Assembly: GCA_002238685.1 (NCBI GenBank)
Contig: MPMV01000002.1
Coordinates: 1 to 64,000, forward strand
Direction of reading: 5' to 3'
Source: a bacterium EF100-94H03 bin56
Lineage (GTDB): Bacteria > Pseudomonadota > Alphaproteobacteria > SP197
DNA length: 64,000 nt
Under the pieces are notes generated by a model. The model did not search any database and was not told where the DNA came from. It was given only the letters and a program-made list of their open reading frames with translations. Below, piece after piece: positions 22,594-24,251 of the stretch; the stretch's first letter is position 1, and each line of letters opens with the position of its first letter. A program made the position numbers and the translations under genes.

Positions 22594-24129
22594 TCAGTCT
22601 TCGCCGAAGACCTCTTCGCATATGGCCTCGATGTACGCCGTCTCTTCATCGCTCAGAGCCCGGAACTCCCTCTCGCGGCGCCGTTTCGGAAGTTTTCCGC
22701 CGTTCTGCCGGATGAACATGATCAGGTCCTGTGCCAGTCGGTCGGGCATCTCCACCATCTCCATGATGCGCCTTCGCGCTTCGTCGTGGCGGCGCAGGCA
22801 ATCGATCTCCTTCGGCAGGTCGTGTTCGACCGTGCGGGCCACGCAGGCATAGAGAAACTCGGCTTCAGCCGTGCAATCGAAGTACCGGTACAATTCGCTC
22901 GTATCGTTGGTGACCTCGACATTCCGGCTCGCCGTCGACCGCCAGTCGATGAAAGGCATCAGCGGCCCGGAATGATTTTCCAGTGCGCGGCGGTAATCGT
23001 CGATCCGGTCCCGCATCACCGCGGAAACCGGGAAGACCATGCCCGGCGGTGTGAAGCCCCGTTCCGCCAGCACATGATGGATCAGGCAGCGGTGCAGACG
23101 GCCGTTTCCATCCTGATAGGGATGGATGTAGACGAAGCCGAATGCTGTGGCGGTCGCCTGAAGCACGGGATCGATCGCGCTCGCGGTCATCCGCCTGTTG
23201 GCTGCGAGCAGGCCTTCGATCAGGCGCGGCAGGTCTTCCGGCCGTGCGCCGACGAATTCCGGCAGGGGGTCGCCGTTGTGATCGCGCTCGCCGAGGAATA
23301 CGCCGTCGGGGCGCAGGCCGGCCCTGATGAAGCGGGTATCCTCGATGAGGACACCGTGCAGGCGGTTGAGCTCATCGAGTGTCAATCGATTCCTGCCGGC
23401 CTGGAGGACCGCGCGCGCCCAGCGCTCAAGCCGGTTGCGCGGCGGACGCTCGCCTTCGATCTCGAAGCTGGCACGGCTGTCTGCCAGCAACAGAAGGCTC
23501 GCGGCCCGGGAAATCAGGTGCCCGCCGGTTCGGCCAACGGTTTGGGCAGCTTTGTCGGCGAGGCGGCGTTCCAGATAGTTTTCGAGGGCCCTGGTGCGGC
23601 GAATGACCGGGCACCATTCGCCCGTGCCGAGCAGGTTGTCCCGCACGCGGTGGCGTTTCGATAGCGCGGCATTCCCGGTCACATATCTCCTGGGATCGAG
23701 GGCGTCGACAGCCGTCACGGTCGGCGCGTCTTCAATCGGCAGTCGCCGACCAGTCATGATTTCATAGAAGAACCAGACCCGGCGGGCAGCCCTCCCGGTC
23801 GGCGCATCGAGCACGAAGGCCGAAATCGTGTCCGGGTCCACAGCGTCCAGCACGCGCTTCGCCACGAGCGGATCGAACCACTCGTGGCGAAGGGCGAAAC
23901 TGAAATGATCCGTCACATGACGGCCCGGCCAGTACCGCTTGTCGAAAACGGTCCAGCCGTCTTCCTCACGCTGGCTGCCCTTGATGTAACCGCCGGCAAC
24001 GACGCTCGCTGCCGGGACCGGGGCCGCGATCCCGAGGCCATGAACCAGCGCGGCCCAACCGGCCAGCCTTGTCTCCTTCGGGACAGGGTGATCCTGGAAC
24101 GTCGGGGGAGTTTCGAGGGTCAGCTCCAT
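22594..24129 (-). CDS. Large Fic domain protein
   Basis: 511 residues from ATG 24129. An N-terminal region (about 1-215) of the DUF4172/Fic-associated kind leads to an inhibitory motif S221-FEI-E225-G226, and then the Fic core HPYQDGNGR at 336-344. A C-terminal helical extension follows. The motif order (inhibitory helix N-terminal to Fic) is class II. It probably AMPylates a cellular target; genes of this size occur alone in accessory regions. Its leader contains five TTTCGAC repeats on the coding strand and is much richer in A/T than the surroundings, suggesting autoregulation and horizontal origin. Confidence 0.9.
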   Translation of the reverse strand: MELTLETPPTFQDHPVPKETRLAGWAALVHGLGIAAPVPAASVVAGGYIKGSQREEDGWTVFDKRYWPGRHVTDHFSFALRHEWFDPLVAKRVLDAVDPDTISAFVLDAPTGRAARRVWFFYEIMTGRRLPIEDAPTVTAVDALDPRRYVTGNAALSKRHRVRDNLLGTGEWCPVIRRTRALENYLERRLADKAAQTVGRTGGHLISRAASLLLLADSRASFEIEGERPPRNRLERWARAVLQAGRNRLTLDELNRLHGVLIEDTRFIRAGLRPDGVFLGERDHNGDPLPEFVGARPEDLPRLIEGLLAANRRMTASAIDPVLQATATAFGFVYIHPYQDGNGRLHRCLIHHVLAERGFTPPGMVFPVSAVMRDRIDDYRRALENHSGPLMPFIDWRSTASRNVEVTNDTSELYRYFDCTAEAEFLYACVARTVEHDLPKEIDCLRRHDEARRRIMEMVEMPDRLAQDLIMFIRQNGGKLPKRRREREFRALSDEETAYIEAICEEVFGED

Positions 24130-24131
24130 TG

Positions 24132-24251
24132 GTCGAAATTCTTTCACTGAAGTCGAAAAAAAGCCGTTTTCTGTAAGTATCGTCGAAATATACCATACAC
24201 CGACGCCATCGAAAGTCGAAACAGTATTCAAGTTCGTTCCACGGGTCGAAA
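24132..24251 (-). promoter_or_regulatory. Array of five TTTCGAC (GTCGAAA) heptamers before the fic gene
   Basis: On the plus strand GTCGAAA occurs exactly at 24132, 24152, 24182, 24215 and 24245, with a near copy ATCGAAA at 24208. Spacings are 20, 30, 33 and 30 bases, close to whole helical turns, and all are in the same orientation. The array covers the leader and promoter region of the large fic gene; TATATT on the minus strand lies between copies. This looks like a multi-site operator for one protein. Confidence 0.6.

Follow-up and report, generated by a model that had tools for sequence, protein, structure and literature searches.

The 64-kb stretch of DNA analysed here (the window) carries on its minus strand fic, a gene for a Fic protein of 511 amino acids (22594..24129, with its ATG at 24129-24127), and close to its 5' end an array of short direct repeats. 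As the original prediction had it, the heptamer GTCGAAA occurs here in five exact copies, starting at 24132, 24152, 24182, 24215 and 24245, all on the plus strand and spaced by 20, 30, 33 and 30 bp. No other 7-mer in the 64 kb reaches five copies in any 125-bp span. When the 130-bp leader was shuffled 20,000 times with its dinucleotides preserved, GTCGAAA never exceeded three copies. Across the window as a whole its enrichment is not significant (9 found, 6.7 expected), so the signal is one of clustering only. Since fic lies on the minus strand, the unit in the sense of the gene is TTTCGAC, with copies at -122, -92, -59, -29 and -9 and a degenerate TTTCGAT at -85; this last site had been overlooked in the first inventory, and relatives of the window copy also have six sites.

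Numbered towards the gene, all features of the leader lie on the minus strand. S1 (24245..24251) and S2 (24215..24221) are exact copies that retain their distance of 30 bp. S3 (24208..24214) is the degenerate TTTCGAT, which aligns with the S3 sites of four homologous loci (L001, L002, L005 and L013). Compared with its closest relatives in the alignment, the window copy is shorter by exactly 13 bp in the S2-S3 interval, through a deletion that moved S1 and S2 geneward and that, together with the degenerate S3, accounts for the odd spacing of 33 bp. A -10-like box, TATGGT (24192..24197), lies between S3 and S4, where homologues show a conserved TATAnT-like column; a simple consensus scan of the leader found no full sigma-70 promoter and no -35 box. 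S4 (24182..24188), exact and conserved at about -59, lies at the presumed transcription start, and S5 (24152..24158), also exact, is conserved at about -29. Between S5 and S6 column conservation marks a TGARRGRT-type spacer element, TGAAAGAA (24139..24146), which includes a purine-rich stretch that can serve as a ribosome-binding sequence. S6 (24132..24138) lies 2 bp 5' of the start codon; of the 80 homologous loci that we compared, most keep this site, at -8 to -10.

The Fic protein

The protein comprises an N-terminal domain (residues 1-150), a Fic core and a C-terminal helical, wHTH-like tail. PF02661 matches residues 249-354 (E 5.7e-14), and the Fic motif HxFx[D/E]GNGRxxR is present at 336-347 as HPYQDGNGRLHR (consensus HPFQDGNGRLHR), with H336, P337, D340-R344 and R347 invariant across 63 homologues. 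The inhibitory helix of class II enzymes, [S/T]xxxE[G/N], is found N-terminal to this motif as SFEIEG (S221-FEI-E225-G226), and S221, E225 and G226 are equally invariant in the same 63 proteins. By these motifs the protein is a class II Fic AMP-transferase with an active-type motif, and AMPylation is predicted. The PADLOC profile PDC-S24 matches nearly the full length (residues 20-510, E 2.9e-178) and represents this very protein family, which is listed as a phage-defence candidate and which also takes in the sister clades described below. The PADLOC SoFic model matches far less strongly (E 3.3e-16), and the SoFic equivalog NF046030 of NCBIfam scores 25.2 bits over 68 residues, against a curated cut-off of 550.

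The structure predicted for the whole protein (pLDDT 90.6) sets residues 1-150 apart as a domain of their own (pLDDT 91.8). Core and C-terminal tail superpose on known Fic structures, among them CbFic2 (PDB 8cil, over 170-510, Z 24.3), SoFic (PDB 3zcn and 3eqx; Z 23.1 for 3zcn) and 4rgl, and the C-terminal helices follow the SoFic and CbFic2 chains up to residue 510, while no HTH family model matched them. The N-terminal domain of about 150 residues is an addition that the SoFic structures and CbFic2 lack. It gave no confident Pfam match, no confident structural match in the PDB, DNA-binding folds included, and no Foldseek match at E below 0.001. Its best structural match is a weak one to AbiEi (6y8q, Z 5.1 over 115 residues, rmsd 4.7), at a Z that lies within the range of chance. 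AbiEi, the antitoxin of AbiE, is described in PMC7319586 as an autorepressor of its toxin locus with repeated promoter sites; unlike the window Fic it is a separate antitoxin and binds inverted repeats.

The array in homologous loci

The original prediction proposed that the same array be sought upstream of homologous fic genes, and there it is present. The 80 loci compared come from Alpha- and Gammaproteobacteria, Acidobacteria, Desulfuromonadales, Verrucomicrobia, Nitrospina, Nitrospirae, Gemmatimonadetes, Opitutia, Pontiella and others, with many metagenome-assembled genomes among them. In nearly all of these loci TTTCGA(C/T) sites stand 5' of fic in a single orientation. In the 78 loci with enough upstream DNA for site counts, the mean is 4.1 sites per 150 bp, compared with 0.17 in shuffles. 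Complete arrays (for example L019, L034, L059 and L061) have six direct sites at about -137, -107, -87, -59, -29 and -9; their spacings of 30, 20, 28, 30 and 20 amount to two 30/20 triads bracketing the -10-like box. The helical phasing first proposed from the spacings thus holds within a triad, whose spacings of 20 and 30 bp come close to whole turns, and does not extend to the 28-bp link or to the 78-bp offset between triads. Apart from the sites themselves, the conserved columns comprise a TGAATGRT-like element before S3, the TATAnT-like box between S3 and S4 and the TGARRGRT element before S6, which can serve for ribosome binding.

No conserved gene other than fic accompanies the array. 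Clusters of ORFs in the 80 loci consist mainly of ORFs overlapping fic and of lineage-specific neighbours, with no conserved neighbour gene, and short ORFs near fic are not conserved beyond closely related strains. The loci differ in this from that of Sofic, a reported abortive-infection toxin with AS1 encoded downstream (PMC12249575), in that no small conserved antitoxin gene was found at the fic loci examined. Two neighbours of individual loci may be mentioned, a GajA-like ATPase directly 3' of fic (L166:3514-5316) and a type I restriction methylase near fic (L019:4325-6352); they suggest defence-island settings.

Besides the window's genome, six whole genomes were scanned. A triad with zero or one mismatch is confined to the fic locus in the window's genome and in five of these, and the remaining one has an array of the TTTCGAT type. 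When two mismatches were allowed, a scan of 385 genomes of the class returned several chance-like matches, and a reversed control pattern also gave a few. Fifteen triad matches in viral contigs were rejected as candidates, since by blastp none of them lies before a Fic gene, and a relative is encoded on only two viral contigs.

Covariation between residue 50 and the base after the site

A single protein reading all six sites should leave the sites within a locus more like one another than their slots alone would predict. Such agreement is found at position 7 (z 3.7) and above all at position 8, the base that follows TTTCGAC (A, z 7.9; G, z 7.1; C, z 4.6), while it is absent at position -1 (z 0.3-0.4) and scarcely present at position 9 (largest z 2.1). 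Base composition does not fit as the cause, because it would affect all positions alike, including -1 and 9.

Among about 350 variable columns of the protein alignment, residue 50 is the column most strongly associated with base 8 (z 21.9; next column, 11.3). In the window this residue is a lysine (codon at 23980..23982, minus strand, that is, 24129-147 to 24129-149). In averages over protein clusters, Lys50 is paired with C (0.59), Arg50 with A (0.61) and Ser50 or His50 with G (0.57-0.58), and Gly or Leu at this residue accompanies T at position 7. Residue 50 shows no association with bases -1 and 9, and it ranks first for S1-S3 alone and for S4-S6 alone. When whole clusters at 75% identity were left out in turn, it was again the best predictor, at 0.220 bits compared with 0.122 for the next column and a cluster-permuted maximum of 0.089; with clustering at 70%, which leaves 7 clusters and no power, it was still first, but below a permutation maximum of 0.356. 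On a tree built without residues 38-66 the state of residue 50 changes at least 18 times, and sign tests on independent pairs went almost only in the expected direction, each being too small for significance. The code was broadly consistent, and only that, with a small sample of five new loci from which near-duplicates had been excluded.

Sister clades and other recognition words

Sister clades of the Fic protein, at 41-48% identity, have sites of another kind, TTTTCA(T/G)G-like (TTTTCAnG), with z up to 14.9 against shuffles. The six-site template of the TTTCGAC family does not fit them; their grid is 30/20/29/20/29, which is nearly that of the TTTCGAC family, and here the start codon falls inside the fifth site and the sixth lies within the coding sequence. 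The proteins of these clades have three residues deleted exactly at 50-52. The TTTC half is common to both words, and the half in which they differ is the one that residue 50 tracks.

The window's own genome has a second fic gene (L143; contig C51:11853-13346, minus strand) with an array of the TTTTCAnG type on a grid of 28-30/20/29/20/29. By its sequence, this genome would hold two different reader/operator pairs in one cell, a natural orthogonal pair.

Other words were found further afield. TTTCGAT is the word of L149 and L159; at L149, on a Rhizobium plasmid, about nine TTTCGAT-like sites lie between about 22 and 221 bp 5' of fic, an expanded array. A third word, GCGACAT, occurs at L160, also on a Rhizobium plasmid (49.6% identity), between about 75 and 192 bp 5' of fic and with spacings of 30, 20, 37 and 30. 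No array was recognisable at the related loci L141, L152 and L157, and among Fic relatives at 28-38% identity (L119-L140) none stood clearly above shuffles, L118 being marginal.

Discussion

The array is best explained as an operator private to a class II Fic gene that stands alone, has spread horizontally and is autorepressed by its own product through the N-terminal domain, a reading to which we assign a probability of roughly 0.83 on the evidence of sequence comparison. From the covariation we infer that Fic binds its own sites. In this respect the original prediction of a dedicated reader, with Fic itself as a candidate, finds good support in the comparison, since the array accompanies fic across phyla with no other conserved gene, since its word changes with the Fic clade, and since a single Fic residue predicts a single base of the site.

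It could be argued that Fic reads the array through its C-terminal wHTH-like tail, as CccR and CbFic2 do, and that the association of residue 50 is indirect. The published Fic regulators CccR and CbFic2 use a C-terminal HTH on DNA, the tail of the window protein superposes on SoFic and CbFic2 to its residue 510, and for the upstream triad the C-terminal column 466 comes nearly level with residue 50 (0.194 and 0.197). Yet columns 448-511 as a group do no better than the rest of the protein (mean z 2.5, compared with 3.3 for 1-150), residue 50 is far ahead of all others, and the deletion that accompanies the new word of the sister clades sits in the N-terminal loop, all of which makes reading by the tail improbable.

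Direct-repeat operators serve unlinked regulators too, and a host regulator unrelated to fic might in principle bind the array. Against this, the array travels with fic over several phyla, two words specific to different Fic clades occur together in one genome, the low-mismatch triad was not found away from fic in the window's genome and five of the six others, and it is a residue of Fic that predicts base 8; we give such a regulator very little credence. Just as hard to sustain is a role of the sites in the mRNA leader, by translational or riboswitch-like control. S4-S6 do lie inside the predicted leader, with S6 adjoining the start codon, and the ATG of the sister clades falls inside a site, but S1-S3, which are 5' of the -10-like box, share the same word and the same dependence on residue 50, and no Rfam family matched the leader. 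That phased T-tracts merely bend the DNA by intrinsic curvature, with no sequence-specific reader, is barely conceivable, for although tracts of three to five T do come back at intervals of 20 and 30 bp, the CGAC half is conserved equally with the T-tract and the word changes in step with the protein.

Under autorepression through the N-terminal domain, several Fic molecules would bind the array in one orientation by means of residues of about 1-150, and the turn at residues 46-54 would make contact with each heptamer in its 3' half, which it would read. The S1-S3 triad would occupy the promoter and the DNA 5' of it, the S4-S6 triad would cover the transcription start and the ribosome-binding region, and full occupancy of the six sites would shut fic off, a case of negative autoregulation. 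Repression and cooperativity are, like the role of Fic in phage defence, what we infer from this arrangement. The likely purpose would be that an AMP-transferase which may be toxic, and which is a candidate for phage defence, stays scarce for as long as the sites are occupied. A defence role is plausible from the PADLOC listing and from the methylase and GajA-like ATPase neighbours noted above. That the operator DNA also controls AMPylation, and that phage infection releases Fic, is speculation.

Autorepression by a class II Fic protein is feasible, because it has a precedent in CccR of Yersinia pseudotuberculosis, which represses its own promoter by direct DNA binding, with a C-terminal HTH on a single pair of inverted repeats, each of 10 bp and set 26 bp apart (PMC9755527). 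The window protein resembles CccR in being a class II Fic AMP-transferase for which autorepression is predicted, but its operator consists of six direct heptamers on a grid of 30/20/28/30/20, and covariation points to the N-terminal domain. CbFic2 of Coxiella burnetii, a Fic enzyme regulated by DNA binding through a C-terminal HTH, provides an example of how DNA binding can alter Fic activity (PMC10628234); no operator repeats were found in that paper. Our literature search, outside which most subscription journals lay, returned no relevant paper for TTTCGAC, no mention of PDC-S24 by name and nothing on its operator or regulation, and no six-site direct-repeat array, N-terminal reader or one-residue code. 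Fic autorepression is already known, in published form from inverted repeats bound by a C-terminal HTH; this type of operator and its reading domain appear to be new.

A more general proposition, which we regard as evenly balanced, is that these proteins represent a new and re-programmable class of operator and reader. A domain of no recognised fold, fused N-terminally to a Fic enzyme, would use a short turn to read TTTC together with a 3' half that varies, residue 50 serving as a one-residue code (Lys for C, Arg for A, Ser or His for G), and the six sites on their fixed 30/20 grid would load several Fic enzymes in one orientation onto the promoter of their own gene, so that occupancy might gate both transcription and AMPylation in a gene for phage defence. 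The finding as a whole provides the PDC-S24 defence candidates, a large group of Fic proteins that is unstudied, with a concrete and testable mechanism of control, and it points to a DNA-reading domain of unrecognised fold with a one-residue specificity code. The family also offers mutually different pairs of operator and reader, two of them in one genome. Lastly, the array provides a sequence signature by which these fic genes and their decayed remnants can be found. At two loci, L085 and L090, the array is followed by the first codons of fic only and then by unrelated sequence, and these are decayed copies that have retained the operator.
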